Below are positions 35,764-63,271 of a stretch of DNA of 64,000 nt, piece after piece. Positions within the stretch are counted from its first letter, which is position 1; each line of letters starts with the position of its first letter. The DNA comes from Bacteroidaceae bacterium (lineage in GTDB: Bacteria > Bacteroidota > Bacteroidia > Bacteroidales > Bacteroidaceae), in assembly GCA_017557005.1 (NCBI GenBank), contig JAFZFZ010000020.1, positions 62,001 through 126,000 on the forward strand. The letters run 5' to 3'. A program made the position numbers and the translations under genes. A model generated the notes under the pieces. That model saw nothing but the letters and a program-made list of their open reading frames with translations. It searched no databases and was not told the origin of the DNA.

Positions 35764-37292
35764 AGTCCTATTCGCTTTATTACTTTTTTGCCAATATTCA
35801 ATATAGTCGTACGCTCACTTGTAGTCATGCCTAAAAACAATGCACACAAAGAAACTGAGGCTACTGACGACATCGTTATTAAAACAATGCGCAGAACACT
35901 CGGTAACATTACATAACTAAGTAATACTGGAATAACTAAAGCGACCAAGGACGTCAATATTATCGGTAGAAAAACCTGCTTTACATACATCGCAACTTTC
36001 AATTTAACCATCTCCTCCATTAAAAACATGCGAGCTATAAGAACAGCAATCTTTACAAAAATATAAATGTAATAGGCATATTGTGGAGTAGCACCCATCA
36101 AGAAAGCACACCATACTAAGAAAAACTCTAAAGAGCCTATACTGGTAATTATTAGAGAATATTTTCTCAACCTACCTGTTGCCATACAAGCGGTATAACC
36201 AGTACGCCCGATACAGTCACATAAGTTGACAACCAATATCAATTGAACAAACGATACAGCAAACTCAGGGACATCGACCAGCCATATATTTAGAATCTGC
36301 TGAGCCTCAAGAATGATGGGCAAAGCCAATAGCAACATGCAATAGTAAGAGAACTTGGCACCTCGGCACACGAGTTTGTGCATACCCTCTAAATCGCCAC
36401 TGGCATAGCTCTTGGTAATCTGAGGATTTACAGCGGTCATAAAGTTACCGACAAACTGATTGACAATATTATTGACCGATACGGCAATGCCTCGGGCGGC
36501 ATTGACGGCAACTCCGAAGAACATATTCAGTAGCATATTAACACCCTGCGTATTGAGAATATAGGTGGTGCTATTGAAAAAATTCCATCCAGCGAATCCT
36601 CCCATCTGTTTGAAGGCGCTTTTGTCGAATGTTAACGTATAAGTGCACTCGGGGAAATGGCGTTTACAGTAGCTACCATAGATAATGCGCACAATGAGAC
36701 CTATAAGACATAGAAGACCGGCAAAGAATATCAGTTTATCGATGGGTGAGAAGGGGATTAAGAGTGCTATAGCCAACTTACCCAAAGCCTCGAAAATACT
36801 GATGTAGGCAAAAGCAGACATCTTCTCATGCGCAATGATAGCAGCATTATAGGGTACACTGACAAGACCTATCACAAAGGAGAGAACAGAGAACTGAAAC
36901 ACCCACTGAGCAGCGACCTCACGACCGGCAGGTATCTTCAGTTGGGATTCAATAAACCATGGACCGAGCAGTTCTGCAACTACAACGACCACCAATGACA
37001 ATACAATCATGATATTGACGGAGGTGGAGAAAACTGTTTTGAGTTTTGAAGCATCGTTGCGGCCAAGTTCATAGGTAATGAAGCGACTAATCGCATCCGA
37101 CAAGGAGGTGGACAGGATGCTAAACATAGCCACGAAACCACCGACCACATTGTAGGTTCCGAAATTGTCGACGCCGAGAGCTGCCAGGTTGACACGAGAG
37201 GTGTATAACCCGACCAGCATCATTAAGAACATGCGAGCATAGAGCAACAGCGTGTTCTTGGCTATGCGTTTGTTACTTTCGGAAATTTCCAT
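35760..37292 (-). CDS. Lipopolysaccharide/O-unit flippase (Wzx/MATE-like)
   Basis: 510 residues with 12-14 helices. SESNKRIAKNTLLLYARMF and NAARGIAVSVNNIV match the flippase at 3148-4683 in the same positions, so they are paralogues with different substrates or from two loci. It exports the lipid-linked repeat unit. A hairpin GCACCGAAGGTGC ends about 7 nt before the ATG at 37292. Confidence 0.9.
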   Translation of the reverse strand: MEISESNKRIAKNTLLLYARMFLMMLVGLYTSRVNLAALGVDNFGTYNVVGGFVAMFSILSTSLSDAISRFITYELGRNDASKLKTVFSTSVNIMIVLSLVVVVVAELLGPWFIESQLKIPAGREVAAQWVFQFSVLSFVIGLVSVPYNAAIIAHEKMSAFAYISIFEALGKLAIALLIPFSPIDKLIFFAGLLCLIGLIVRIIYGSYCKRHFPECTYTLTFDKSAFKQMGGFAGWNFFNSTTYILNTQGVNMLLNMFFGVAVNAARGIAVSVNNIVNQFVGNFMTAVNPQITKSYASGDLEGMHKLVCRGAKFSYYCMLLLALPIILEAQQILNIWLVDVPEFAVSFVQLILVVNLCDCIGRTGYTACMATGRLRKYSLIITSIGSLEFFLVWCAFLMGATPQYAYYIYIFVKIAVLIARMFLMEEMVKLKVAMYVKQVFLPIILTSLVALVIPVLLSYVMLPSVLRIVLITMSSVASVSLCALFLGMTTSERTTILNIGKKVIKRIGL

Positions 37293-37474
37293 TTTATAGC
37301 ACCTTCGGTGCGGTTAAAGCGTCTTTGACGCGGTGAAAGGTTAAAGGTTAAAGGTTAAAGGTTAGAGGTGAGGGGGTGAGAGGTGAGAGGGTTAGGGAGG
37401 CTTTGTTTAGTGTGTAGTGTTTAGTGTGCCATCCGGACGGCCCTATAACCCATAACCTTTAACCCTTATAGAGG
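37293..37474. repeat. Hairpins and tandem GGTTAAAGG words
   Basis: GCACCTTCGGTGC and GCGTCTTTGACGC, four tandem GGTTAAA words, GGTGAGAGG words, a tttagtgtgtagtgtttag run, CCATCCGGACGG (37429-37440) and ccataacctttaaccc. They directly follow the four-helix-bundle gene. Confidence 0.8.
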
Positions 37475-37864
37475 TTAGGGGTTAGAGGTGAGGGCTTTAA
37501 TTCGTTTTGCGCGAAGGCCTGATAACATTTTTGCAATACTAGTTACTGAACGCTCTATTTCTACAAACTTCAAGTCGGTTATATACCCTAAGTCTTTGGC
37601 TATCTCTACCTGACACATAACCTCATATAATGATCCAAAGGCTATTTCGATAAAATGTATTTGTTCTTTTAGAGAAACACGGCCCATACCTTCCGCGATA
37701 TTAGATGGTATGGAAACTACAGCTCGGCGCAACTGGTCACATAATGAATATGTTTCCTCTTTAGGAAAATGCTTCAACAAACTATAGATATCTGTCACTA
37801 ACTGCTTAGAACTTTGATATGCCTGCAAATTCCTATATGAAAACAATTCATCTCTCTCATCCAT
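37475..37864 (-). CDS. Four-helix-bundle protein (23S rRNA IVP / S23 type)
   Basis: About 129 residues from the ATG at 37864. LFSYRNLQAYQSSKQLVTDIY, SLCDQLRRAVVSIPSNIAEGMGR and ALGSLYEV-like FGSLYEVMCQVEIAK are the S23-type four-helix bundle. The family is common in Bacteroidota; its function is unsettled. Its last residues LTSNP and stop derive from the intergenic GGGTTAGAGGTGAGGG repeat. The broken relative is at 13813-14276. Confidence 0.8.
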   Translation of the reverse strand: MDERDELFSYRNLQAYQSSKQLVTDIYSLLKHFPKEETYSLCDQLRRAVVSIPSNIAEGMGRVSLKEQIHFIEIAFGSLYEVMCQVEIAKDLGYITDLKFVEIERSVTSIAKMLSGLRAKRIKALTSNP

Positions 37865-37947
37865 ATCTATAACCATTAACCTCTAACCCTTTAACCCTAT
37901 AATCCTCTAACCCATAACCTTTAACCCATAACCTTTAACCCTTTACA

Positions 37948-39288
37948 TTATTCCCTTCTAATATGAAGTTCAAATGCCTCTGAATGTTGCTCTACAAACT
38001 GCTTGGCATCGTTGACGACGAGGGCGAGGTAGCCACCACCGCCTGCACCGGGCATCTTCCAAGCAAGGACATCGTCCATAGCGCTGTAGTGAGATATGGC
38101 TTCGGCGATGTAGCTATTAGCTGTTTCGATATTACAGTCTACGGTCAACGGTCTACGGTCAACAGTCAGGCCATCCGGATGGAGGTTTTCGTTTTCGTTA
38201 GCGTTAGCGTCAACGTTAGCGTTATCGTTATCGTTTATATGATAGGTCGGGGTAATCATGCCGGGGAACATGGCGACCTGGGCATCAAAAGAGGCTTTGT
38301 AGGCGGATGCAAAGGCGGCAAGGTCTTTCTTCATGATGGCTTCCCAGCAGGCATCGGCGGCATCGACAAGAGCCTGCACCTTGGTGGGGGTGATATCCTT
38401 GTTTTCAACGACTGAGCAGCCGGGCTTGCGGGGCTCCATGGGTACCATCACGAGGTGCTCCTCAAGGAAACGGAGGGTCATCTCATCAACGGTGTTCTCA
38501 ATCTTCTTGGGCCAGAAATTATTGTCGTAGTAGTGACGGCAGAGGCCGGGGAAGCAGATGCCGATGGAGTCCTGAGCACCGGAGATATGGCCCTCCTGAC
38601 GCTCGGGGTTGTTCTCGAAGCAGAAGACGAGGCGAGCGAGCATCTCGGGATCCATCTTGGGGAGCTTCATGGGCCAGATCTTCTGTATCATATTGCGGGT
38701 GCTGGTGCTGAGACCGCAGCGGTCGCGCACATCGAAGGTAGGCTCCAACGAGATGGTGATGGCCCAGCCGGGACGATGCATGCTGACATAGGGCTGGTCG
38801 ATCCAGGTGCCGGCGAGGTCGAGGCGGGTGGGGATACCCACATTGGCTGTTGGCTGTTGGCTATTGGCTTCTTGGGTGCTGAGGGATGCCTTGAGGGAGC
38901 TGGAGCTGCGGGCCTCTAACCCTGCGTGGGGGGTGCGCTGCAACTCGATATACTGGATGCCGCGCTCCTCGCAGAGCTGACGCTTGGTGTCGCTGCCGCC
39001 ATCGGCATTGACAACGAAGATGTCGGGCTTAACGAGGTCGAGGGTGGGCAGGAAGTCGATGACGCCGCTGCCCTCGTTGATGTAGGCTTCCTTGACGGCC
39101 TTGATATTGCGTACCATAAACAGGCGTTCCTCCTGAGGGAACATGGGCTTACGGTGCTTGTACTCGAGGTAGGTGGCATCGGAGCCGATGCCGACATAGA
39201 GTTCGCCAAACTGGGATGCCTGCTGGAAGAACTCTACATGGCCGCTATGGAGTAGGTCATAACAACCTGATACAAAAACTTTTTTCAT
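37948..39288 (-). CDS. Cytidylyltransferase-GHMP sugar kinase fusion carrying in-frame repeat insertions
   Basis: 446 residues. The N-terminal nucleotidyltransferase has GCYDLLHSGHVEFF (HxGH) and GSDATYLEYKH. The C-terminal GHMP kinase has PTRLDLAGTWID, SGAQDSIG and a terminal GAGGGGYLALV. It likely makes an activated sugar (heptose or fucose-like) for the polysaccharide. Two stretches are repeat-derived: residues about 134-148 (EANSQQPTAN) and 350-387 (NDNDNANVDANANENEN, then HPDGLTVDRRPLTVD). The second reproduces the intergenic composite at 47477-47545. Whether the enzyme still works is unknown; the frame is intact. Confidence 0.82.
   Translation of the reverse strand: MKKVFVSGCYDLLHSGHVEFFQQASQFGELYVGIGSDATYLEYKHRKPMFPQEERLFMVRNIKAVKEAYINEGSGVIDFLPTLDLVKPDIFVVNADGGSDTKRQLCEERGIQYIELQRTPHAGLEARSSSSLKASLSTQEANSQQPTANVGIPTRLDLAGTWIDQPYVSMHRPGWAITISLEPTFDVRDRCGLSTSTRNMIQKIWPMKLPKMDPEMLARLVFCFENNPERQEGHISGAQDSIGICFPGLCRHYYDNNFWPKKIENTVDEMTLRFLEEHLVMVPMEPRKPGCSVVENKDITPTKVQALVDAADACWEAIMKKDLAAFASAYKASFDAQVAMFPGMITPTYHINDNDNANVDANANENENLHPDGLTVDRRPLTVDCNIETANSYIAEAISHYSAMDDVLAWKMPGAGGGGYLALVVNDAKQFVEQHSEAFELHIRRE
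38140..38240. repeat. Repeat insertion inside the GHMP kinase gene
   Basis: Read on the minus strand: AACGATAACG-type words, aacgaaaacgaaaacc, CCATCCGGATGG (38171-38182) and gttgaccgtagaccg words, in the same order as the intergenic stretch at 47477-47545 upstream of sprA. No stop codon in the coding frame. Confidence 0.85.
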
Positions 39289-39666
39289 TTTTAATTTGCA
39301 ACTTTGTTGCGACTTAATTTATTGTCAATAATCAACTGACAATGCTGAATTTATTTTGTCAACAGAACTTAAACGGAATTTAGACGCGTTTACGCACGTG
39401 CAAGCTTGTGCTGGGCCTCCGGGATGCTATCATTTAATCTCACACAGAAAACACGGAAAGCACAGAAAGGCACGACGCTACGCCCGTGCGGCCTCCGGGA
39501 TGTTTGCTTGTTTTGACCACAGATTGCACGGATTACACAGATTTTTGTAAGTTGCTGCGCTCTTACAGCCTCCTGATGGTACACGCGAGTTTACGATGCG
39601 ACAAATTTCAGTGATTTCTGTGATTTCCGTGTGACCTACCTATAGAAAGAACAGAAAGCACAGAAT
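39289..39666. repeat. Intergenic mosaic of dispersed modules
   Basis: Copies of the tcaacagaacttaaacgg ... ggcctccggg module (39357-39424), ctcacacagaaaacacgg ... gcccgtgcggcctccggg (39437-39503), ttttgaccacagattgcacg ... ctcttacagcc (39509-39567) and gatgcgacaaatttcagtg ... gtgtgacc (39594-39638). Open frames here are not genes. Confidence 0.82.
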
Positions 39667-40038
39667 CTAATTCGCTATGCGAGTTATCGCTGTAAGGATG
39701 TTATCTGTATTGAAGTTCACAAGAAGTCCTACCTTCTTATTCATCAGCCGTAAGTAAGTAAGAAGTTGTTTCGAAAACACCTTCTTCATTTCTTCAACTG
39801 ATTTCAACTCGACTATGACTTCATCTTCAACAAGAAGATCCAATCGTAGTTCAGTCTTCAACACATTTCCTTTGTAGTTAATGGGAACCTGTTTCTGTCT
39901 TTCTATTGTAAGTCCTCTCCTCTCTAATTCAAAACACAATGCCTCTTCATACACGGACTCTAACATACCAGGACCAAGTTCCTTATAAACATCGTATATG
40001 GCGCCTCGTATTTCGAATGTAATATCGTTTACCGTCAT
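39667..40038 (-). CDS. GxxExxY protein
   Basis: 123 residues. GPGMLESVYEEAL carries the name-giving GxxExxY motif, and RLDLLVEDEVIVELKS is the PD-(D/E)XK-like core of this family. Function unknown; common near repeat-rich Bacteroidota regions and polysaccharide loci. Free-standing between two blocks of repeats, hence a possible passenger of the repeat system (inference). Confidence 0.85.
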   Translation of the reverse strand: MTVNDITFEIRGAIYDVYKELGPGMLESVYEEALCFELERRGLTIERQKQVPINYKGNVLKTELRLDLLVEDEVIVELKSVEEMKKVFSKQLLTYLRLMNKKVGLLVNFNTDNILTAITRIAN

Positions 40039-40316
40039 AGGATATTTTTTATCTCACACAGAAAGCACAGAAAAGCACAGAAAAGCAAGTGGTTGCACCC
40101 TTGCTGGACGGCTAATGCCGAGTGTATATCTTTAAATTGTTGAATCTTGAATAAAATACTTCACCATTAGCCGGCGCAAAGCCAAAAGCTAATCCCAACG
40201 GAAGAGGTCGCGAGCAATAGTGATGCGACAAATTTCCGTGATTTCTGTGATTTCCGTGTGAGATTATACGATTCATCCGGATGGAGGCCAACAGCCAAAG
40301 GCCAACGGCCCCCCCA
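40039..40316. repeat. Intergenic repeat mosaic
   Basis: ctcacacagaaagcacag words, a gatgcgacaaatttccgtg ... gtgtgag module (40220-40262), CATCCGGATGG (40274-40284) and gccaacagccaaagg. Ends at the stop of the dehydrogenase gene. Confidence 0.8.
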
Positions 40317-41831
40317 TCAATCCCGACGGAAGAGGTCGCGGGTATATACCTTTTCGTGGACGTCGTCGAGGACGGAGTCGTAACGGTTGGCGATGATGGC
40401 TCGCGAGAGGCGCTTGAACTCGGTGAGGTCGTTGACGACACGGCTACCGAAGAACAGGGTGCCATCGGGCAACGAGGGCTCGTAGATGATGACCTCGGCT
40501 CCCTTGGCCTTGATGCGCTTCATGACGCCCTGGATGGAGCTGTGACGGAAATTGTCGGAGTTGGCTTTCATCGTTAGGCGGTACACTCCGACAACCGGGG
40601 GGGTCGGAGTGTTGTCAACGGTCAACGGACAACGGTCAACGGACTGATTAAATGATGAATTATATTGGTTATTTTCGCTATAGGCATACCAGCCGGCGAG
40701 GCGGAGCACCTGGTCGGCAATGAAGTCCTTGCGGGTGCGGTTGCTCTCGACGATGGCGGTCATCATATTCTGGGGTACATCCTGGTAGTTGGCAAGGAGC
40801 TGCTTGGTGTCCTTGGGGAGGCAGTAGCCACCGTAGCCAAACGAGGGGTTGTTGTAGTGGGTGCCAATGCGGGGATCGAGTCCGATGCCCTGAATGATGG
40901 CGGCGGAATCCAAGCCCTTGACCTCGGCATAGGTGTCGAGTTCGTTGAAGTAGCTCACACGCAAGGCAAGGTAGGTATTGGCAAAGAGCTTCACGGCCTC
41001 GGCTTCCTTGAGTTCCATGAACAACAGGGGGATGCCCTTTGCAAATTGAGAATTGAAAATTGAAAATTGAAAATTATCCTCCGGATGGTTGGCGGTTTGT
41101 TGAACGGTTAATGTTGAAGGTTGAACGAAGTTAACGTCAACGTTTTTGTTTTTGTTTTCGTTATCGTTAGCGTTAGCGTTAGCGTTAGCGTTACCAATGG
41201 CGCCTTGAACGAGGAGGCGAGCAAAGGTGTGGGCAGCCTCTTCGAGGTGGTTGCCGGCAATCTGCTTGATGGCGGCACGCTCCTCGTCGGTGCAGCTACT
41301 GAGCTTGGGATAGCTCACGATGATGCGTGAGGGGTACAGGTTGTCGTAGAGGGCTTTGCTCTCGCGCAGGAACTCGGGGGAGAACAGCAGGCGGAACTTA
41401 CGGGTGGTGTCGTAGCCGCGCTCCTTGAAGAGGCGGGCGTACTTGACATACAGGCTGCGGCAGTAGCCCACGGGGATGGTGCTCTTGATGACCATGGTGC
41501 CCTCGGAACCTGACTCGATGACCTGATCGATGACGCTCTCCACGGCAGAGGTGTCGAAGAAGTTCTTCTGACTGTCATAGTTGGTGGGAGCGGCGATGAT
41601 GACGAAGTCGGCATCGCGGTAGGCGCTCGCAGCGTCGAGCGTGGCGACGAGGTTTAGTTCGCGCTCAGCGAAATACTTCTCTATATAGTCGTCCTGGATG
41701 GGCGACACGCGGCGGTTGATCATATCGACCTTTTCGGGGATGATGTCAACGGCGATCACTTCATTATGTTGGGCAAGCAGGGTGGCCATGCTTAGGCCTA
41801 CGTATCCTGTGCCGGCGACGGCGATTTTCAT
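40317..41831 (-). CDS. ugd: UDP-glucose 6-dehydrogenase with two in-frame repeat insertions
   Basis: 504 residues, against about 390 for the short Ugd type. NAD loop [29 protein letters not shown], the [13 protein letters not shown] helix and the catalytic-cysteine motif [18 protein letters not shown] are all present. It oxidises UDP-glucose to UDP-glucuronate with two NAD. Insertion A (residues about 213-263) reads [17 protein letters not shown], then repeat words and [11 protein letters not shown], splitting QGAI from KGIPLLF. Insertion B (about 381-412, [17 protein letters not shown]...) precedes [17 protein letters not shown]. Both sites are expected loops or linkers. GDP-mannose dehydrogenase activity is less likely. 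Confidence 0.88.
40597..40690. repeat. Repeat insertion B inside ugd
   Basis: gtcaacggtcaacggacaacgg words followed by an AT-rich stretch, in frame between the NAD-binding part and PVVGVYR. Equivalent words occur between genes (for example 47455-47475 and 47640-47665). Confidence 0.75.
41043..41196. repeat. Repeat insertion A inside ugd
   Basis: Three families joined: gaattgaaaattgaaaatt (41050-41075), CCTCCGGATGG (41078-41088), gttgaacggttaatgttg words and a gttagcgttagcg run (41160-41195). All read through without a stop on the minus strand. Confidence 0.88.
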
Positions 41832-42357
41832 TTTTATATTAGTTTTTTCTCACAGAAAATATGTTTCATTTCACGCGTAATCTCACGCAGAATTTTTTAT
41901 CTCACACAGAATTTTGTATCTACACAAAACAATCAACGCTAACTGGTTTTGAATTCACAGAATACGCACACGCAGGCTTGTGCTGCCATCCGGATGGGAC
42001 ACGCGAGTTTACGATGCGACAAATTTCAGTGATTTCTGTGATTTCTGTGTGAACTATCTAATGAAAGTCAGAATTTTTCTATCAACAGAACTAAGACTCG
42101 AATTTAGACACGTTTACGCAAATCGCTGCGCTCTTGCTAACCTCCGGGATGCTATCATTTAATCTCACACAGAAAGCACGGAAAGCACAGAAAGGCACGA
42201 CGCTACGCCCGTGCGGGCCTCCGGAGTGGTATCAATTGTCTCACGCAGACTTCACAGAATACGCACACGCTTCGCTTGTGCTGGCCAAGACAGCCAAGGC
42301 TGAACGAAAACGATGACGTTGACGAAGACGAAGACTTTCTTTAGTGGAGCTAGTTCT
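41832..42357. repeat. Intergenic mosaic of dispersed modules
   Basis: ctcacacagaattttg words, an acgcacacgcaggcttgtgc module with CCATCCGGATGG (41986-41997), the gatgcgacaaatttcagtg ... gtgtgaac module (42010-42055), tcaacagaactaagactcg ... cctccggg (42082-42148), a cagaaagcacgg ... gcccgtgcggg module (42162-42230) and an AACGATGACG run. No gene. Confidence 0.85.
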
Positions 42358-42966
42358 TTATGAATATTGTTTTAAGTTCTCCAAAATTGTTTGCTTTATC
42401 TCATCCCATGAGATGCCTGCAAACATACGAGGAGTGGGTTGCATATCGGCATCCTCAAAATAGGACATTGAAATCAATGCTCTGAACACCGAATGCTCGG
42501 GATACTTTTTCTTGTAGAAACCAAGTATCTCTTCCAATGTATAATGCTTCAATAAATAGTACAGATCTATAAAATCTTTTTTACTTCCACGTCCCTCAAT
42601 TGCATTTATTTTCATGGCTGCTATATCGGGAGGAGTCGCCAACTGAAGACCGTCTACCTGCAATGGTTCCTCTATCCAAGAGTAATCGTAATATACGAAA
42701 TCCACCTTGATACCATCTAACTGATAGACTTTTATACGAGAACTTTCTTTTATAATGGACAATTGTCCATAACGACGTAGAATCTCAGAAAACAGAATAT
42801 CAGAATCGAAAGTTCCAAAAAAATCCAAATCAATAGATGTGCGATGGCCATATTGAAGGGCAAGAGAAGTACCCCCTACAAGGCGCATATCAGAGAACTC
42901 TGGAACATCAGATAGTTTCTTTAGGAGTTCCAAAGTGTGGGGTTCGACTGTCTGGTATGATAGCAT
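42358..42966 (-). CDS. Nucleotidyltransferase, AbiEii/AbiGii toxin family
   Basis: 202 residues. RLVGGTSLALQYGHRTSIDLDFFG is the GG plus DxD catalytic core; the C-terminal QPTPRMFAGISWDEIKQTI is the piece found as a remnant at 10450-10521. It is probably the toxin of a two-gene system with the overlapping upstream gene (46-bp overlap). It sits inside the polysaccharide locus between the dehydrogenase and the initiating transferase. Confidence 0.85.
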   Translation of the reverse strand: MLSYQTVEPHTLELLKKLSDVPEFSDMRLVGGTSLALQYGHRTSIDLDFFGTFDSDILFSEILRRYGQLSIIKESSRIKVYQLDGIKVDFVYYDYSWIEEPLQVDGLQLATPPDIAAMKINAIEGRGSKKDFIDLYYLLKHYTLEEILGFYKKKYPEHSVFRALISMSYFEDADMQPTPRMFAGISWDEIKQTILENLKQYS

Positions 42967-43226
42967 CTGAATGATTCTTTAGGAGTATTGGATATAGCAC
43001 TGATAAAAGACAAGCAAACGGGATCAAGGGAACGCATCGCCTTACATAAAGAGACTATATGGTCAAGACCATAATAGCTGCGAAGCAATCTCCAATCTTC
43101 AATTGTACCATATTCAAGGACGCGCTGCACTATAAAAGATGCATGAGCATCCATATCAATCTCTTCGCGGTAAACATCCCAAAAAAGATGTTCCGAGAAT
43201 TTTTGTCTACAAGCTTGTGCTGTCAT
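42921..43226 (-). CDS. Small partner of AbiEii-type gene (DUF6922-like)
   Basis: 101 residues. HLFWDVYREEIDMDAHASFI, VQRVLEYGTIEDWRLLRSYYG and a C-terminal helical part match the layout I recall as DUF6922 (number from memory). It is encoded just upstream of, and overlapping, the nucleotidyltransferase, like the pair at 10548-11512. Antitoxin or regulator by position. Confidence 0.75.
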   Translation of the reverse strand: MTAQACRQKFSEHLFWDVYREEIDMDAHASFIVQRVLEYGTIEDWRLLRSYYGLDHIVSLCKAMRSLDPVCLSFISAISNTPKESFRCYHTRQSNPTLWNS

Positions 43227-43239
43227 AAGTATTGTAGCA

Positions 43240-43511
43240 TTTTGGTTCTGCTTTCACCGAAGCAAAGCTTCTTTAACCGTCGCTCTGCGACTTTAACCGC
43301 GTCAAAGACGCTTTCACCATGCCGAAGGCATTTTCACCGTTGCGGAGCAACTTTAACCGAAGCGAAGCTTCTTTAACCGCAACCCTCGGTTGCTTTCACC
43401 GTGCCGAAGGCACTTTCACCGAAGCGAAGCTTCTTTCACCGTTGCGAAGCAACTTTAACCGCGCTTTAGCGCTTTCACCGCGTCAGCGCTTTCACCAACA
43501 ACCCAAGGCTG
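43240..43511. repeat. Hairpin-linker array in inverse orientation (about 12 units)
   Basis: With CTTTAACC/CTTTCACC linkers on the plus strand: GAAGCAAAGCTTC, GTCGCTCTGCGAC, GCGTCAAAGACGC, ATGCCGAAGGCAT, GTTGCGGAGCAAC, GAAGCGAAGCTTC, GCAACCCTCGGTTGC, GTGCCGAAGGCAC, GTTGCGAAGCAAC, GCGCTTTAGCGC; the last units (GCGTCAGCGC and ACAACCCAAGGCTGT) are imperfect. It ends at the stop of the transferase gene. Confidence 0.88.
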
Positions 43512-44696
43512 TCACTCCTGCAGCGGAGGATTTTTTCCATCCATCAGGCGTTGGAGCCAGAGGAAGATGCCTTTGCGCTCGACATGGGAGATCTTACCGA
43601 GGGTGCACATGATATCCCAAAGGGCGTAGCGGCGTCTCTGGCACAGGCGCATGAGGCCGTAGAAACCGAAGGTGACGAGGAGCGACATGGCGACGCAGAC
43701 GTAGAACTGCACGTTGATGGTGCAGCCTGCCTTGTAGACGCCATACCATGAGAAGAACACCAGGAGGTTGAGCAGGAGGATGCTGACCGTGGTGCCTATA
43801 TGGGAGAAGCCCATCGAGATGAACAGATGGTGCAAATGGGTCTTGTCGGGATGGAAGGGGGAGGTACCACGCAGGATGCGCATGCTCATGACACGGATGG
43901 TGTCGAACACGGGGATGGACATGACGGACAGGGTGAAGGGTACCAAGCCGAGGCCCCACGAGTCGTAGTAGACGCAGTAGGTCTCGCTCTTGAGGATGTT
44001 GAGCACGAAGATGCTCATGACAATGCCGATGACGAGGGTGCCGCCATCGCCGATGAACATCTTACTGGTGCGACCAAAGACATTGTGGAAGAAGAAGGGC
44101 AGCAACGAGGCCACACATACGGAGGCGAGCATGACCATGTTGACATCGCCAGCCAAGTAGAAGAAGAAACCGAAGATGCTGCAGGCCATGATACTATAAC
44201 CACTGCTATAGCCGTCGACACCGTCGATGAGGTTGATGGCATTGATGATGCCAACCACGGAGAGGACGGTGAGGGGTATGCTGAGGCAGGCGGGCAGGTT
44301 GTTGATGCCCCACAGGCCATGGAAGTCATTGATGCTATAGCCACAGGTGGAGATGAGCATGAGCACCAGGAGGATCTCGATAAGGAAACGAGAGCCGGCG
44401 GAGAGCTCGATGACATCATCGATGGTGCCCACATACAGCATCACCAGCATGGCGAGCATAATGGTGAACAGTCCGCTGCAGTCGTAAAACATGCGGCAAA
44501 CGCTCAGGGATACCAGGATGCCAAACATGACTGCGACACCGCCCAATACAGGGACGGGAATGCGCTGCAGCTTGCGGGCATTGGGATTGTCAACTATGTC
44601 TTTCAACAGGGCTATGCGCAGCACCTTGGGGTAGATCCAAATGGCGGCAAGCAACGATACCACAAAGGGTATGAGGATGTGAAGAATAATGGACAT
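43512..44696 (-). CDS. WecA/MraY-type undecaprenyl-phosphate sugar-1-phosphate transferase
   Basis: 394 residues, 10-11 membrane helices. GTIDDVIEL, NLIDGVDGYSSG, MFIGDGGTLVIG and HPDKTHLHHLF are the cytoplasmic loops of the polyprenyl-phosphate HexNAc-1-P transferase family. It transfers a sugar phosphate, probably GlcNAc-1-P, to undecaprenyl phosphate and so starts each repeat unit. It is the first gene of the minus-strand polysaccharide operon, reached from a promoter at about 45003-45033 through a 300-nt leader. Confidence 0.9.
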   Translation of the reverse strand: MSIILHILIPFVVSLLAAIWIYPKVLRIALLKDIVDNPNARKLQRIPVPVLGGVAVMFGILVSLSVCRMFYDCSGLFTIMLAMLVMLYVGTIDDVIELSAGSRFLIEILLVLMLISTCGYSINDFHGLWGINNLPACLSIPLTVLSVVGIINAINLIDGVDGYSSGYSIMACSIFGFFFYLAGDVNMVMLASVCVASLLPFFFHNVFGRTSKMFIGDGGTLVIGIVMSIFVLNILKSETYCVYYDSWGLGLVPFTLSVMSIPVFDTIRVMSMRILRGTSPFHPDKTHLHHLFISMGFSHIGTTVSILLLNLLVFFSWYGVYKAGCTINVQFYVCVAMSLLVTFGFYGLMRLCQRRRYALWDIMCTLGKISHVERKGIFLWLQRLMDGKNPPLQE

Positions 44697-44870
44697 ATTT
44701 TATTGATGGTTAAAGTCGCGGAGCGACGGTTAAAGCAGCGGAGCTGCGGTTAAAGCTACTTCGTAGCGGTTAAAATGCCTGCGGCATGGTTAAAGCTGCC
44801 AAAGGCAGCGGGGAAAGCAACCAATAGGTTGCGGGGAAAGTGGCGGAGCTGCGGGGTAGCAGCATTGTAG
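44697..44870. repeat. Hairpin-linker array in the leader of the polysaccharide operon
   Basis: GTCGCGGAGCGAC, GCAGCGGAGCTGC, GCTACTTCGTAGC, ATGCCTGCGGCAT, GCTGCCAAAGGCAGC and GCAACCAATAGGTTGC with GGTTAAA or GGGGAAA linkers. It lies between the putative promoter and the ATG at 44696, so it would be in the 5-prime leader of the operon mRNA. Confidence 0.85.
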
Positions 44871-45002
44871 CTAAAAGAGCATTCCTTTGGTTCCTGAAAT
44901 TTAGCAAAAGATGCTAAGTATCAGTAAATTACAACAAAACAAGGATTTTATACCTGTTTGTTGGTATGTCAAATCCGTATGAATAATCCCGTTATTTTTT
45001 TG

Positions 45003-45033
45003 CAAAAATACGAATTTATAATCATTACAACAA
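45003..45033 (-). promoter_or_regulatory. Candidate promoter of the polysaccharide operon
   Basis: On the minus strand: TTG (45033-45031), a 20-bp spacer and TATTTTTG (45010-45003), an exact TAnnTTTG. It is about 305 bp upstream of the first gene, giving a long leader. A second weaker -7-like TAAGTTTG lies at about 45086-45093. Confidence 0.5.
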
Positions 45034-45174
45034 TTTATTTCACTTTTTTCTCATTTTTAATGAGTTCCTTGACTGGGTATTTTTTTGCAAACTTAACAAG
45101 TTTTCATTTTTTTTGTTTGTCGAGTTGCCATATCTGCATTCTTAGTTGCGTGACGCTATGGAAGTTTGCGTGAG

Positions 45175-45877
45175 ACAAAAGACGCACACGCAGGCTTGTG
45201 CTAGCCATCCGGGGGGGGGGGGATTGGCTGTTGGCTCTTGGCTATTAGCTTTTGGCTGCCATCCGGATGAATCGTATAATCTCACACAGAAACGAAGTTC
45301 GCTGGCCGAAGGGAAAAGCAAAGCACGGAAAGCACAGAAATTTATTCGTGAGATTCGTGAGATTCGTGGTCAAGAAAATTAAACGCAGATGATATGTTTA
45401 TTTGAACACGAATCACACAAATTGCACGAATCTGGCACGACGCTGCGCCCGTGCGGCCTCCGGGATGATTGCTTTTAATCTCACGCAGACTTCGCAGAAG
45501 ACGCAGACTATAAGAACTTTAATAGACAATCAACGTGCGCTGGATACAAATACGCAGAATACGCACACGCAGGCTTGTGCTAGCCATCCGGATGGGACAC
45601 GCGAGTTTACGATGCGACCAATTTCCGTGATTTCTGTGATTTCTGTGTGAACTACCTAAATAACCGTGTGTTCGTGTGGAATCGTGTTGATGATATAACT
45701 TTGTCAACGCGAACTTAGACGGAACTTAGACACGTTAACGCACACGCAGGCTTGTGCTGACCTCCGGATGGGACACGCGAGCGATGTGTCGTGGGACTCG
45801 CCAAAGGCTTCGTACTCCTTTGGGACCCTAAAGGCTCCGTCGTCGCAACCGACGCTTTCATACCGCGTCGGTCTGTG
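45175..45877. repeat. Intergenic mosaic upstream of the IS110 element
   Basis: Copies of most families: cgcacacgcaggcttgtgc with ccatccggggg (45183-45225), CCATCCGGATGA, aacgaagttcgctggccg (45291-45318; also in clpB), attcgtgagattcgtgag, ggcacgacgctgcgcccg, CCATCCGGATGG (45584-45595), gatgcgaccaatttccgtg ... gtgtgaactacc (45607-45655), tcaacgcgaacttagacgg ... acctccggatgg (45702-45775), and the small palindromic element copy B (about 45790-45872). Open frames here are not genes. Confidence 0.82.
45790..45872. repeat. Small palindromic element, copy B
   Basis: actcctttgggaccctaaagg ... ccgtcgtcgcaaccgacg, then ctttcataccgcgtcgg; CCGACGC/GCGTCGG form a 7-bp stem. It directly abuts the left end of the IS110 element. 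Confidence 0.7.
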
Positions 45878-45894
45878 ATTTCCTTTAGATTTGT

Positions 45895-46115
45895 AGAGTA
45901 AAAACAAAGGTAGAAAAAAATCCCTACCTTTGTAAGAGTTAACCAAAGGAGAGAGGTGAACTAGTGTGTTTTCTAGCCTCATGAGCTATGCACGGAAACA
46001 GTCCTCTTCTCCTTTCCGTTGAACGGAAGAGCCAACTATATTTGTAGGTTCAAAGACCTAATAAAGGATTCAGTTAGTTCAACTCCCGGTTAACAAAAAC
46101 TTATAACAATGCAAA
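45895..46115 (+). ncRNA. Candidate IS110 bridge RNA
   Basis: The 220-nt non-coding left end before the recombinase, where IS110-group bridge RNAs are encoded. It has a 10-bp perfect hairpin ACAAAGGTAG/CTACCTTTGT (45904-45933), CTAG-tgtgtttt-CTAG (45961-45976), a CTCTT...CCGTTGAACGG...AAGAG stem (46004-46030) and TAGGT/ACCTA (46035-46050). The segment CACGGAAA (45991-45998) is complementary, with at most one G-T wobble, to TTTCTGTG or TTTCCGTG of the target repeat, making it a possible target guide. Expression and loop assignment are inferred. Confidence 0.6.
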
Positions 46116-46118
46116 GAT

Positions 46119-47123
46119 ATGGAAAAAGATCATTACATCGGAGTGGACATCTCAAAAAGAACGATTGATGTGGCAATTTATGTCAAGAACCAGGTAAAGA
46201 AGGGTGCCTTCCCTCATGAAACCTTCTCGAATTCTGAAGATGGATTCAAGGATATGAAGAGATGGTTGCGCAAGCAAAATACTGTTCTCTCCAAGTCTCT
46301 ATTCTGCATGGAGGCCACAGGAAACTACACATACGAACTCTGTCTTTTCCTTGAGCAGCAGAGTGTGGATTACTCGATACAAAGTCCCCTCCACCTGAAA
46401 CGATCTTTCGGTTTGACGCACGGAAAGAATGACAAGATTGACGCCTCTCGTATTGCTTATTATGCCTATCTTCACCGTGAAGACATCAAACTTACCAAGC
46501 TGGCATCTGAAAGCGTTCGCAAGCTAAAATCCTTAATTGCAGAGAGAAAGAGCTTTGTTGTAGAGATTGCACGCTGCAAGGCACAACTCAAAGAAGCTGG
46601 AGAGAATGCCCCAAGCCCAGGTACTGTCAAGCGCACAGAAGCCCTGCAACTATTCCTCGAGAGTCAGGTTGAAGCTATCGAAGATGAAATGGCCCAGACC
46701 ATAGAGACCGATGAGCAGATGAGGACCAATTACAATCTGCTGCTATCTGTTGACGGCATAGGTGTTGTCAATGCCATCAATACGATAATAGCTACCCATA
46801 ACTTTGAAATGTTTGATAACGCTAGACAGTATGCAAGCTATATCGGAGTGGCTCCATTTGAGCACACATCAGGAACCAGTGTAAGAGGTCGGACACATGT
46901 CGAGCCTGGAGCCAAGATGCTAAAAGCAGACTTGACTGGTGCCGTAAGATCATGTATAAATCACGACAAGGAAATCAGAAAATACTATGAACGAAAGATT
47001 GCAGAAGGAAAAGCTTATGGGGTTGTAGCAAATGCCATTAAGTTCAAGCTCTTGCTACGAATGTTTGCCGTAATAAAGCGCGGGACGCCTTTTGTAAGGA
47101 AACCTGACTTCATTTATTCATAA
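46119..47123 (+). CDS. IS110-family recombinase/transposase
   Basis: 334 residues. The N-terminal RuvC-like DEDD domain has YIGVDISKRTIDVAI (D10), CMEATGNYTYEL (E) and GKNDKIDASRIAYYA (D, D). The C-terminal Transposase_20 domain has LLSVDGIGVVNAINTI and YIGVAPFEHTSGTSVRGRTHV with the conserved serine. It uses a bridge RNA to recombine DNA without target duplication. The gene is intact, so the element may be active. Confidence 0.93.
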   Translation: MEKDHYIGVDISKRTIDVAIYVKNQVKKGAFPHETFSNSEDGFKDMKRWLRKQNTVLSKSLFCMEATGNYTYELCLFLEQQSVDYSIQSPLHLKRSFGLTHGKNDKIDASRIAYYAYLHREDIKLTKLASESVRKLKSLIAERKSFVVEIARCKAQLKEAGENAPSPGTVKRTEALQLFLESQVEAIEDEMAQTIETDEQMRTNYNLLLSVDGIGVVNAINTIIATHNFEMFDNARQYASYIGVAPFEHTSGTSVRGRTHVEPGAKMLKADLTGAVRSCINHDKEIRKYYERKIAEGKAYGVVANAIKFKLLLRMFAVIKRGTPFVRKPDFIYS

Positions 47124-47168
47124 ATAGTAAAAATAATAGCAAATTTATTTGGAGATATCCTATATTTC

Positions 47169-47680
47169 TGTGTGAACTACCTAAATAACCGTGTTTTCGT
47201 GTGGAATCGGGTTGATAGTTAAATTCGTGAGATTCGTGAGATTCGTGGTCAAACAGAAACAGCTGTTAGTTATTATGACTAAACAAAATTACTAAGTTTT
47301 TTAACTTACCTACACAATAATCTATTTTATCCCGCGTTTATGAATAACGTATGCGCGTGGATAGCCGCTGGCGGTGAAAGCACGCGGGGCGTGCGGTGAA
47401 AGCCACGGAGTGGCGGTTAAAGTGCCTTTGGCACGGTTAAGGGTTAAGGGTTAGAGACCGTAGACCGTTGACGATAACGTTGACGATAACGAAAACGAAA
47501 ACCTCCATCCGGATGGCCTGACCGTTGACCGTAGACTGTTGACGATAACGATGACGAAGACGAAGAAAAATACCACCTCCCCCTTACAGGGTACTCCTCC
47601 TAATTTAGGAGGAGAAATTAACCTGCTGGATGGAGACCGTTGACCGTAGACCGTTGACCATTGACAGTTGACAAAATGAA
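47169..47680. repeat. Intergenic mosaic upstream of sprA
   Basis: The remainder of the target module, attcgtgagattcgtg (47222-47255), hairpins GCACGCGGGGCGTGC, GCCACGGAGTGGC and GTGCCTTTGGCAC (47372-47436), an aacgataacgttgacg run, CCATCCGGATGG (47502-47513) with gttgaccgtagac words, and a ccacctcccccttacagg ... taggaggag module (47570-47619). No gene; the start of sprA follows. Confidence 0.82.
47570..47619 (+). repeat. CTCCTCC palindrome module, left copy
   Basis: ataccacctcccccttacag through a perfect CTCCTCCTAATTTAGGAGGAG palindrome with one asymmetry. An inverted copy is at 63438-63484, so the pair brackets the sprA-clpB block. Confidence 0.75.
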
Positions 47681-50600
47681 ATGGAAGAAAGAGTGAGACA
47701 CAAGATATTGACAATACTGCTAACGATGATGGCTTTTGCGATGAACGCAAAGGCTCAAGGTGTTGTGCAGTTTGCCGACTCACTCAACAAGGAGACGCGC
47801 TATGAAGTGGCGAAGACCGCACCCGACAACGAGAAGGACCTGGAGCGCAAGGCGGTGGACCTGCGCAACCCGGAGAACCTGACGACGGAGACGACCTACG
47901 ACGAGAAGACACATACGTACATCGTGGGTAACAAGATAGGCGACTCGTACCTGTCGGTGCCCCTACTGATGACTCCCGAGGAGTATGCAGCATGGAGCAT
48001 GAAGCGCTCGCTGGACGCTTACTTCCGCAACAAGAACCAGGAGGAGTTTGAGAAGGAGGGCAAGAAGGAGAAGTTTGACTTCACAGATATGAAGTTTGAC
48101 CTGGGCCCCGCGGAGAAGATCTTCGGCCCTGGTGGCGTACAGATCAAGACGCAGGGATCGGCCGAACTGAAGTTTGGCTTCAACCAGAAGAGCATCGACA
48201 ACCCCTCGCTGCCGACACGTAGCCGCAACACCTTCGGGTTTGACTTCGACGAGAAGATCAACCTGAGCATCAATGGTAAGGTGGGCGACAAGGTGAACCT
48301 CAACATGAACTACAACACGGAGGCGACCTTCGACATAGACTCGAAGAAGATGAAGCTCAAGTACGACGGCAAGGAGGATGAGATCATCAAACTGCTTGAA
48401 GCGGGTAACGTGAGCTTCCCCACCAACTCGTCACTCATATCGGGTGCCACCTCGCTCTTCGGTATACGTGCCGACCTGCAGTTTGGCAAGCTGTCGCTAC
48501 AGACAGTGGTGTCGCAGAAGACCTCGGAGAGCAGTTCGGTAAGCTCAAAGGGCGGCAGCCAGCTGACGGAGTTTGAAATCGATGTGGCGGACTACGACGA
48601 GAACCGACACTTCTTCCTGGCACACTACTTCCGCGAGACCTATGACCGCAACATGGCGCAGCTGCCTACCATCCTGTCGGGGGTAGTGATCACGCGCATC
48701 GAGCTGTGGGTGACCAACAAGACAAGCAACTACGACAACCCGCGCAACGTGATTGCCTTCACCGACCTGGGTGAACCATCGCGCATCAGCAACCCGCAGT
48801 GGACAGCCACGGGCGAGCGCATGCCTAACAACACGGCCAACAGCCTCTACTACCAGATGGCAAACAACTACAGTGCCATCCGCGACATCGACCAGGTGGG
48901 GGCGGTGCTGGGCGACATGCTCTCGGGTAGCACCGACTATGAGAAGGTGGCCAACGCCCGCCTGCTGAGCCAGAGCGAATACACACTGAACAAGTCGTTG
49001 GGTTATGTGTCGATGAAGTCGACGCTGAAGTCGGACGAGGTACTGGCGGTAGCCTTCGAGTATACCTATGCGGGCAAGACCTACCAAGTGGGTGAGTTCT
49101 CGACCGACAAGAAGGAGCGAAGCGACGCCTTGTATGTGAAGTTACTGAAGTCGAACAGTTCATCGCCCGCCAATGCGACCTGGGACCTGATGATGAAGAA
49201 CATCTACTACCTGGGGGCAAACAGCATCACCTCGAAGGATTTCCGACTCGACATCGAATATGAGAGCGATAGCACGGGTACTAACCTACCCTACCTGCCC
49301 GAGGGCAACCTGAAGAGCAAGACGCTGCTGCAGCTGATGAACCTGGACCGCCTGGATGCGAAGCAGAATGCCAACCCGAACGGATTCTACGATTATGTGG
49401 AGGGATACACGGTGCAGTCATCAACGGGACGCATCATCTTCCCCGTGATCGAGCCTTTCGGTGCTCACCTGCGCAAGGTGATTGGCAACGATGCGGTGGC
49501 GGACAAGTATGTGTTCGAGGAGCTGTACGACTCGACCAAGACCACGGCCAAGCAGATTGCCGAGAAGAATAAGTTTATCCTCACGGGTGAATATGCGGGA
49601 TCGGGAGGCAACGTGATACAGCTGGGTGCCTACAACATTCCGCGCGGATCGGTGAAGGTGACGGCAGGTGGCGTGACGCTGACCGAGAACAGCGACTATA
49701 CGGTGGACTACACCATGGGTACGGTGACCATCATCAACCAGAGCATCCTGGATGCGGGCACACCGGTGAACGTATCGATGGAGAGCAACACGGTGTTTAA
49801 CATGCAGCGCAAGACGATGCTGGGCATGAACTGGGCATACGACTTCAACAAGGACTTCAAGCTGGGTGGTACGCTGATGTACCTGAACGAGAAGCCGCTC
49901 ACAAGTAAGGTGAGCATGGGCGACGAACCGCTGAAGAACACGCTGTGGGGCCTCAACATGGCATGGAAGCATGAGAGCCAGCTGCTCACCAACATGCTGG
50001 ACCTGCTGCCGGGACTGCACGTGACACAGCCCTCGCGCATCAACTTCACCGCGGAGTTTGCGCAACTCGTGGCGGGGGTGTCGAACCAGGTACAGGGTAG
50101 CGCCTCGTATATCGACGACTTTGAGAGCAGCGAGAGTGGCATCGACATCAAGTCGCCCAGCGCATGGATGCTATCGGGCATACCGGCATCGCAACCCTAC
50201 GCGAACCTTGTAGATGACACGCGCACGGGCATGAACCGCGCACTGATCAACTGGTTTACCATAGACCCGCTCTTCACACGACGCAACTCATCGCTGACAC
50301 CGGCACATATCAAGAGTGACCTGGAGCAGCTGTCGAACCACTACGTGCGCGAGGTGTACGAGCGCGAGCTATATCCTAATAAGGAGAGCACCTACGGCGA
50401 GTCGTCGACACTATCGGTGCTGAACCTGGCCTACTACCCCGACGAGCGTGGTCCCTACAACCTGGATACGAACCTGACACCCGAGGGTAAGCTCCTCAAC
50501 CCGGAACAACGCTGGGGCGGTATCATGCGACAGCTGACGACGACCGACTTTGAGAGCTCGAACATCGAGTACATCGAGTTCTGGATGCTGGATCCCTTCA

Positions 50601-61021: not shown

Positions 61022-63271
61022 TTAATTCTCAATTTTCAATTCTCCCCCCTCAGCATCCACGACAATCTCGCGCGTGCGGTCAATCTCCATAGCCAAGATC
61101 TTTGTGGAGAGGACGTTGAGCAGGAGATTCTGTATGGCTCGCTTCACAGGACGTGCGCCAAACTCGGGGTCGTAGCCAGCATCGGCAATATAGTCGATAG
61201 CCTTCTCTGTGAGTCGCAGACGAATATCGTTAGCGGCCAGCATGCGGCACACGTTATGGATCTGCAGGCGCACCACCTGGGCAATCTCCTCCCGATTGAG
61301 AGGAAGGAACATGATGGTCTCGTCGATACGGTTGAGGAACTCGGGCTTGATGGTCTGCTTGAGCATCTCTAGAAGCTCGCTGCGCAGCTTTTCTAATTGA
61401 GAATTGAAAATTGAAAATTGAGAATTAACCTCCGGGTGGTCAGACTGTTGACCGTTGCTTTTCCCTTCGGCCAGCGAACTTCGTTTGACTGTTGACTGTT
61501 GGCTGAGGGCGCTTCCCAAGCGTTCACGAATGAGCGAGCTACCGAGGTTAGAGGTCATGATGATGATGGTATTCTTGAAGTTGACCGTACGTCCTTTGTT
61601 ATCGGTGAGGCGGCCATCGTCGAGTACCTGCAGGAGGATGTTGAACACGTCGGGGTGGGCCTTCTCAATCTCATCGAAGAGAACCACGGAGTAGGGTTTG
61701 CGACGTACGGCCTCGGTAAGCTGTCCGCCCTCATCATAGCCGATGTAGCCAGGAGGCGCACCGATGAGTCGGGTGACGGAGAACTTCTCCTGATACTCGC
61801 TCATGTCGATACGGGTCATCAGGCGTTCGTCGTTGAAGAGGTAGTCGGCCAGGGCTCGTGCCAGCTCCGTCTTACCCACACCGGTGGTGCCAAGGAAGAT
61901 GAATGAGCCGATGGGACGCTTGGGATCTTGCATGCCGGCACGACTGCGGCGAACGGCATTGGCTACGGCAGCAATCGCCTCATCCTGTCCGATGACACGG
62001 CGGTGCAGCTCCTCCTCGAGATGGAGCAGCTTGTGACGCTCACTCTCAAGCATCTTGTTCACGGGAATGCCCGTCCAACGGCTTACGACATCGGCGATGT
62101 CATCGGCGGTGACCTCCTCTTTGATGAGGGCTCCACTGCCCTGCTTGCTGTGTAGCTGCTGTTCGGTGGCGGTGATCTGTGCCTCGACCTCCTTGAGGCG
62201 GCCATAGCGTATCTCGGCCACACGGCCATAGTTACCCTCACGCTCGGCACGGTCGGCCTCTACCTTGAGCTGTTCGACGAGCTGCTTCTTCTGCTGAATC
62301 TCGTCGATGAGTCGCTTCTCGGCCTGCCACTTCTCTGATAGTTCGCGCTCCTGACTGCGCAAAGCGTCAATCTCCTCGGTGAGCAGTGCCAGCTTGGGCT
62401 CATCCTTCTCGCGCTTGATGGCCTCACGCTCAATCTCGAGCTGCTTCAGGTGACGAGTGATCTCATCGAGTTCCTCGGGCACTGAGTCGCGTTCCATACG
62501 CAGTTTGGCTGCAGCCTCATCCATGAGGTCGATGGCCTTGTCGGGAAGGAAGCGCTCGGTGATGTAGCGGGACGATAGTTCTACCGCTGCGACGATGGCT
62601 TCATCCTTGATGCGTACCTTGTGGTGACTCTCGTAACGTTCCTTAATACCACGCAGGATGGATATGCTGCTGGCTTCGTCGGGCTCATCGACGATGACAG
62701 TCTGGAAGCGGCGCTCGAGCGCCTTGTCCTTCTCAAAGTATTTCTGATACTCATCGAGGGTGGTAGCACCAATGGAGCGGAGTTCGCCACGCGCAAGGGC
62801 TGGCTTGAGGATATTGGCTGCATCCATGGCACCTGAGCCGTCGGCACCTGCACCTACGAGCGTATGTATCTCATCGATGAAGAGGATGCACTCGCCAGCC
62901 GACTGGATGACATCGTTGACAACACCCTTGAGACGCTCCTCGAACTCACCCTTATACTTGGCTCCTGCCACCAGGGCACCCATATCGAGGGAGTACACCT
63001 GCTTGCGCTTGAGGTTTTCGGGCACATCGCCACGCAGGATACGGTGGGCAAGTCCCTCGACAATGGCGGTCTTACCCGTACCGGGCTCACCGATGAGAAT
63101 GGGGTTGTTTTTCGTACGGCGGCTGAGAATCTGCAGTATGCGTCGGATCTCCTCGTCGCGACCTATCACGGGATCGAGTTTACCGCTCTTGGCAGCCTCA
63201 TTGAGGTTGATAGCAAAGCGGTTGAGAAAGCTATTCTTCTCGTTCGGATTATTTGCAAAGTTATTGTTCAT
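61022..63271 (-). CDS. clpB: ClpB-type disaggregase, no N-domain, with an in-frame repeat insertion
   Basis: 749 residues against about 860 usual: the Clp N-domain is absent and the protein starts just before [14 protein letters not shown]. Two AAA modules: GEPGTGKTA with ILFIDEIHT, and GTTGVGKTE with [11 protein letters not shown]; a long coiled middle domain lies between. Hexamers extract proteins from aggregates with DnaK. Residues about 590-626 ([17 protein letters not shown], then [11 protein letters not shown]) are repeat-derived and sit between [12 protein letters not shown] and [17 protein letters not shown]. The last residues ELKIEN and stop come from a gaattgaaaattgag repeat. Confidence 0.9.
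61393..61505. repeat. Repeat insertion inside clpB
   Basis: gaattgaaaattgaaaattg (61400-61425), CCTCCGGGTGG (61431-61441), gttgaccgttg, then the reverse complement of the aacgaagttcgctggccg module (61457-61485), identical over 29 bp to 45291-45319, then gactgttgactgttggc. Confidence 0.88.

Follow-up and report, generated by a model that had tools for sequence, protein, structure and literature searches.

Modular hexamer and heptamer repeats shared between intergenic DNA and enzyme loops in a gut Bacteroidales genome

Introduction

The best analogue of the repeats described here, compared by description, is the group of Rickettsia palindromic elements (RPE). These are dispersed repeats of ~100-150 bp that lie between genes and in frame within unrelated protein genes, and different groups of them may occupy the same or a near site in orthologs (PMC3767692, PMC10969869). 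The TAACTGA heptamer repeats occur in Beggiatoaceae, Cyanobacteria and a few Bacteroidetes, where they are mostly intergenic, with some copies within ORFs and those mostly at protein ends (PMC4679880). The BrickBuilt MITE of Porphyromonas gingivalis is presented as a tandem-repeat element with 19 copies in one genome, built of a 23-nt unit with a leader and a tail that carry inverted ends, and always intergenic (PMC4596501). Cyanobacterial small dispersed repeats are very small and thought to be mobile (PMC2884548).

We analysed a stretch of 64,000 nucleotides (the window) from the draft assembly (2.58 Mb, 82.9% completeness) of an uncultured gut bacterium. Like the RPE, the composite repeats found in it are present both between genes and in frame in unrelated genes; unlike the RPE, they do not form a single palindromic family of ~100-150 bp, only a 12-bp joint being palindromic, but a modular patchwork of hexamers and heptamers in gut Bacteroidales hosts, and the modules that occupy a given site differ between nearly all close species. 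With the TAACTGA repeats they share heptamer direct repeats that are mostly intergenic and sometimes lie in ORFs; here, however, many heptamers are combined with hexamers and a palindromic joint, and the genic copies occupy internal loops of conserved enzymes for which empty-site orthologs exist. Porphyromonas gingivalis also belongs to the order Bacteroidales, and BrickBuilt is likewise a tandem-repeat element, but the 23-nt unit, the inverted ends and the strictly intergenic position are features of BrickBuilt. The cyanobacterial repeats are similar in being very small. MITEs have terminal inverted repeats at fixed ends, which were not seen at the joint sites read here, and the cognate Y1 transposase of REPs has a distribution that the composite does not follow in the 13 genomes compared.

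That dispersed repeats can lie in frame within unrelated genes, even with different groups at a single site, is already known from Rickettsia. What sets the present repeats apart is their modular construction, the joint, the lineage of the hosts and the regularity with which loop content changes between species; a search of the open-licence PMC literature, which is not proof of absence, turned up no account of modular repeats lying in frame in loops of Bacteroidales enzymes. Non-coding repeats would feed new in-frame segments into core enzymes beyond the intracellular bacteria in which this was first described, and intergenic repeats seem, unusually, to supply new protein sequence.

The composite shared by a gene and the region upstream of sprA

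The first-pass annotation had proposed that a composite repeat of the intergenic region upstream of sprA (whose identity we checked by Pfam, PF14349) was copied into the gene at 37948-39288, the same repeats following each other in nearly identical form at both places. The order and the near-identity were borne out: both copies consist of a hexamer array, CCATCCGGATGG and a heptamer array, read on the minus strand in the gene and on the plus strand in the intergenic region (Table 1). A BLAST search inside the genome matched the two over 73 nt at 90% identity (101 bits, E 1.1e-22), and local alignment of both composites, the comparison that had been suggested as a check, gave a score of 113 with gaps totalling 6 nt in the hexamer part; the shared block is corrected to 38144-38216. 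The identity exceeds what low-complexity sequence would give, since the next matches of the genic query in its own genome were simple arrays of at most 61.7 bits, the best of them a lone hexamer array. The core CCATCCGGATGGCCTGAC, searched with at most one mismatch, occurs at two places in the 2.58-Mb assembly, namely the genic and the sprA-upstream copies. The intergenic copy is preceded, a short way upstream, by a gene for an IS110-family transposase (46119-47123).

A common origin of the two composites is supported because the 73 nt are 90% identical, the non-repetitive core is found nowhere else in the genome, and four orthologs do not have the block. Copying into the gene is the natural direction, given a family found chiefly between genes and relatives in which the genic site is empty, and 47471-47543 is a possible donor. 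In those other genomes for which the DNA preceding sprA was inspected, however, this composite is missing there, and the two copies may therefore both be specific to the lineage.

These matches also bear on the idea that the arrays arose in place, independently, by replication slippage, their likeness to intergenic DNA being compositional. Period 7 dominates the tested periods, slippage very likely changes copy number, and slippage alone could explain simple loops such as the second loop of the host gene, but a 73-nt composite with a unique core can hardly arise twice in this way and therefore needs copying, and it exceeds the array background by about 39 bits. We regard this explanation as quite improbable, and as largely refuted for the composite.

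Searches of plasmid, phage and viral-contig sequences with the composite gave no match, the BLAST low-complexity filter possibly hiding simple parts in the first two, and no link of the composite to a replicon was found. An Rfam search of 36000-48500 returned no family.

Table 1. Positions, in the window, of the repeat-encoded stretches and of the genes that contain them.
Feature	Position	Strand	Remarks
Host gene, cytidylyltransferase-like domain and C-terminal fucokinase/GHMP-like domain, 446 aa	37948..39288	-	ORF, PF01467
Lineage-specific in-frame block, residues 349-387, HINDNDNANVDANANENENLHPDGLTVDRRPLTVDCNI	about 38128..38241	-	not in four orthologs of the genus
Heptamer array module GTTGACC/GTAGACC, read as LTVDRRPLTVD	38133..38168	-	
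Shared stretch	38144..38216	-	90% over 73 nt to intergenic copy
Palindromic joint CCATCCGGATGG, 12 bp, read as HPDG	38171..38182	.	
Hexamer array module AACGNN	38184..38235	-	within genic block
Second repeat-encoded loop of host gene (site A), heptamer array AGCCAAC, EANSQQPTAN, between two domains	38841..38872	-	
UDP-glucose/GDP-mannose dehydrogenase family gene (UGD), two repeat-encoded loops	40317..41831	-	
UGD loop 2, heptamer array	40613..40644	-	
UGD loop 1, hexamer array, heptamer array and joint-like HPE-coding stretch	41039..41198	-	
Composite, intergenic copy, upstream of sprA	47471..47543	+	alignment and BLAST
Joint palindrome, intergenic copy	47505..47516	.	
ClpB-like AAA+ protein gene, 749 aa	61022..63271	-	
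ClpB-like repeat-encoded loop, joint-like HPE-coding stretch and heptamer array CAATTTT (array 61393-61429)	61393..61516	-	

The host gene and its two loops

The host gene had been labelled a cytidylyltransferase-GHMP kinase. Its N-terminal cytidylyltransferase-like domain is recognised by Pfam (PF01467, the only domain that Pfam recognised) and NCBIfam, and the GHMP part of the label rests on a weak similarity of the C-terminal part to fucokinases. As had been noted, the reading frame stays open across the insert, the ORF being intact. Of 61 genomes searched for orthologs, 38 gave a match, many of them to the N-terminal domain only, and 16 loci with usable orthologs, including our own, entered the alignment. 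Measured between the flanks TY and (N/G)(S/T)YI, the loop has 41 residues in the window gene and 7, such as IGHPEED, in four orthologs of the same genus that are 84-88% identical; by this comparison the genic block is lineage-specific. These four orthologs have IGHP or IEHP plus the flank at this place, and the block replaced about seven residues rather than being a clean insertion. The insert first placed at 38140-38240 is real, and the whole non-homologous block extends from about 38128 to 38241. A more distant ortholog of the same genus (L007, genome G005) carries a different heptamer array at the block site, two others of the genus (L010 and the partial L018) have neither block nor array, and one more (L006) breaks off at a contig end.

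At 60 of 90 positions, the 14-mers of the block recur elsewhere in the sample of its own genome, against 14 of 90 in the comparison genome G001; at site A the figures are 14/24 and 0/24. The dN/dS of the host gene against six relatives is 0.07-0.15, saturation making the largest distances rough, which indicates that the gene works and is under purifying selection; the added residues probably form a disordered, near-neutral loop in the protein.

The smaller insertion EANSQQPTAN, also pointed out at first pass, is real as the heptamer array of site A (Table 1), which has no joint, but it is not special to this genome, for close relatives have a linker there too. The window gene and its five closest orthologs of the same genus share a linker of similar length at this site; four of the five orthologs encode it by a different heptamer array and one (L005) by a hairpin-like stretch, such that five different heptamer arrays and one hairpin-like stretch occupy the same place. 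The linker is short in L007 and L010 of the same genus and in the orthologs of other genera.

An artefact of assembly or binning that joined intergenic repeat DNA into the gene is scarcely credible: the genome is a draft and repeats do cause misassembly, but the frame is kept across the blocks, and like loops occur in other assemblies, one of which is from the isolate Leyella stercorea An906.

Repeat-encoded loops in other enzymes

Arrays were also found in genes for a UDP-N-acetylglucosamine 2-epimerase, a nucleotidyltransferase, a glycosyltransferase, two UDP-glucose dehydrogenases, a ClpB-like ATPase, a sodium:solute symporter-type protein, a methionine synthase (MetH) and a TIR protein. 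Blocks of this kind sit in inter-domain or variable loops of several unrelated enzymes, and the same loops hold different modules in different species.

The UGD gene was read in 95 loci, with loop 1 measurable in 87. This loop has 63 aa in the window copy and 12 aa in 65 of the 87 measurable relatives; its sequence differs in the window copy, in its paralog of the same genome and in each of the closer orthologs of the genus, and it is short in more distant members of the genus (L037, L039, L040 and L041). After removal of a duplicate contig and of identical loops, 36 distinct long loops remained; 15 of them have a period of 6 or 7, against 50 of 1197 control segments from the same genes (p 3e-11), and outside the genus 8 of 24 long loops are periodic (p 6e-6). 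The same kind of UGD loop is present in other assemblies, including the named isolate Leyella stercorea An906, and because related loops exist in this isolate the origin of protein insertions, a question of long standing, can be tested in the laboratory. The predicted structure of the UGD protein has a mean pLDDT of 68, with low confidence in the loops and elsewhere, so that disorder of the loops is not proven by it. In a Prevotella UGD gene (L141, 3001-4521) both variable loops encode the same peptide, PSLNREGWGGSP, which suggests that one repeat entered that gene twice.

Comparable pictures came from the ClpB-like and MetH genes, each compared over 30 loci, some of them truncated. The closer same-genus orthologs of the ClpB-like gene each differ in the loop, which is mostly repeat-encoded; in more distant members of the genus and in other families this loop is short and hardly varies in length. 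The length of the MetH linker is variable in every group, and several of its versions in the closer orthologs of the genus are recognisable repeat peptides. Proteins of two further genomes, which we take to be RuvA-like, have heptamer-encoded linkers, and a repeat-encoded linker is carried by a class-I glutamine amidotransferase of G001, presumably HisH-like; the identification of this last gene as RuvA was rejected. TIR-Sel1 and VapE-like proteins of relatives contain hexamer-heptamer or hexamer-joint stretches. Two TIR proteins near the ClpB-like gene (L083, 577-2064; L073, 593-1417) have hexamer-encoded acidic linkers, and the one of genome G004 also has four tandem ETVDRRPLTVD units followed by Sel1 repeats.

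One could see in these loops functionally selected hypervariable regions for which the repeats are raw material, given that the same loops of several proteins have been diversified repeatedly across species. The host families are, however, mostly cytoplasmic enzymes without a common theme, and any change by a single heptamer unit would bring a frameshift, costly for an enzyme; we consider this account very unlikely.

How much such repeats contribute was estimated from 84 reciprocal-best ortholog pairs between 614 kb of the source genome and 834 kb of G001, a survey that replaced an earlier comparison of 34 pairs (27 own genes) on stretches chosen around the finding. Indels of at least 6 aa were present at 17 sites, five of which have a period of 6 or 7 (12/726 controls, p 1.7e-5) and five of which contain repeated 16-mers (38/726 controls); one or the other applies to 6 of the 17 (40/726 controls, p 3e-4) and neither to the remaining 11. 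We used 16-mers because 13-mers were too loose, 287 of the 726 controls being positive. In this small survey the repeats account for about a third of the sizeable indels between related species (6/17), in a sample that is not random, the contig of the window (C3) being over-represented and holding four of the six repeat-positive indels.

By k-mers, an excess of potential donor sequence in the own genome was shown only for the host gene at 37948-39288. For UGD loop 1 and the ClpB-like loop it was small, and for UGD loop 2, MetH, and the HisH-like gene and UGD loop 1 of G001 the other species holds as many matches or more. The evidence for donors, as read from these matches, is good for the host gene and poor for the other genes. 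Annotators should be warned that such stretches are not conserved domains.

Arrays and joint across the genome

The window contains 14 period-7 arrays, against a mean of 0 in 20 Markov controls. Over a sample of 284 kb from this genome, period 7 was the commonest among periods 4-15, and period 14, its harmonic, came next; with tandem units in the range of 5-11 nt and lengths beyond chance, these arrays agree with long simple sequence repeats of the heptamer class. Period-7 arrays in the sample number 18 in ORFs, which make up 87% of the bases, and 21 outside, so that their density is about 8-fold higher outside ORFs and still 18 of 39 lie within them. At a slightly looser threshold the count rose to 59 arrays, of which 36 lie outside ORFs, 20 within them and 3 on their edges. 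The 12 arrays that are closed in all six frames lie without exception outside ORFs or on ORF edges, as the way in which ORFs are defined would in part lead one to expect. The heptamer modules are many (GTTGACC, AGCCAAC and CAATTTT are examples) and are accompanied by AACGNN hexamers.

The exact joint CCATCCGGATGG is present at 13 places in the genome and its reversed control at none; with one mismatch, 26 sites were counted in the 284 kb, against 0-3 in five shuffles. Seven of these 26 lie in ORFs, including two without nearby arrays that may be due to chance. Of 19 genomes of the genus, 13 contain the joint, as do 12 of 42 others, mostly in a single copy. The modules on its two sides are often unlike, several times hexamers on one side and heptamers on the other, and HPDG or HPE precedes the heptamer peptide in five genes of the source genome. 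When 19 syntenic intergenic regions were compared between species, arrays or the joint were present in one species only in four regions and in both species in none; to go by these regions, intergenic modules turn over between species as well.

Origin of the blocks

We consider it probable, at about 0.6, that the block is a copy of a member of a modular repeat system of this Bacteroidales genus, the modules of which spread by repeat-templated copying. Such modules would be short tandem arrays, often butted together at the 12-bp palindromic joint CCATCCGGATGG, that change fast in intergenic DNA and now and then enter genes. The copying would take the form of ectopic gene conversion or of a template switch in repair or replication, with microhomology in the arrays or at the joint as the primer, and the arrays would then lengthen or shorten by slippage. 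A genic copy would persist only if its loop can accommodate it and if its array is open in the frame concerned, and an element-encoded enzyme would not be needed. We infer this mechanism, no copying event having been observed.

Three results guide this preference. Neither constant ends nor terminal inverted repeats were seen among the 13 exact joint sites, whose 110-nt flanks were read by eye. Comparison with the four empty-site orthologs gave no clear target-site duplication, the boundaries being not exactly placeable. A Y1 transposase (PF01797) was detected in 5 of 13 genomes of the genus, in the source genome only at the cut-off, and the composite in 10 of the same 13. Since constant ends, a target duplication and a matching Y1 distribution were not seen, and since the arrays and the joint supply microhomology, repeat-templated copying is favoured.

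The same results weigh on the view that the composite is a tiny mobile element, non-autonomous and mobilised in trans by a transposase that recognises the joint, a view one could also take of Rickettsia palindromic elements, MITEs or REPs. In its favour, the joint shows a strong over-representation, is flanked by the same neighbours in both copies, genic and intergenic, and recurs beside arrays in several genes, and the IS110-family transposase gene at 46119-47123 is close to the intergenic copy. Against this, the flanks of the joint vary in module type and length without fixed ends, many genic arrays, such as that of site A, have no joint, and a target duplication was not resolved. The Y1 (REP-type) transposases, with 5 of 13 genomes against 10 of 13 for the composite, are not supported as a general mover, although their absence from draft genomes is not conclusive, and a transposase other than Y1 is possible as mover. 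Taken together, we deem a mobile element of this kind unlikely.

A more novel reading would be that the joint and pre-existing relics of arrays in the loops act as landing pads for host-driven exchange of cassettes, a dedicated recombination activity swapping intergenic modules into loops of core enzymes marked in this way. The ortholog L002, which is without the block, has CCATCCCGAAG at the block site, matching CCATCCGGATG at 9 of 11 positions; this resemblance to the joint is a single case, and it is suggestive of a landing site. If it were true, cassette exchange would be a standing source of new protein segments in Bacteroidales; we see it as rather improbable.

Other repeats in the window

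Further repeats occur in the window. Arrays of a 20-nt unit at 43230-43482, 44700-44860 and 47392-47442 consist of GGTTAAAG (or its complement) and a 12-nt hairpin, the stem of which differs from unit to unit with the pairing kept. Longer intergenic repeats of the TCTCACACAGA type lie at 39414-39643, 41985-42225 and 45455-45659, and some of this type also contain CCATCCGGATGG or a related CTCCGG motif. Between repeat blocks, among genes of sugar metabolism, the stretches 37475-37876 and 39667-40038 encode a 23S rRNA intervening-sequence-type protein and a PDDEXK_3 protein, respectively.
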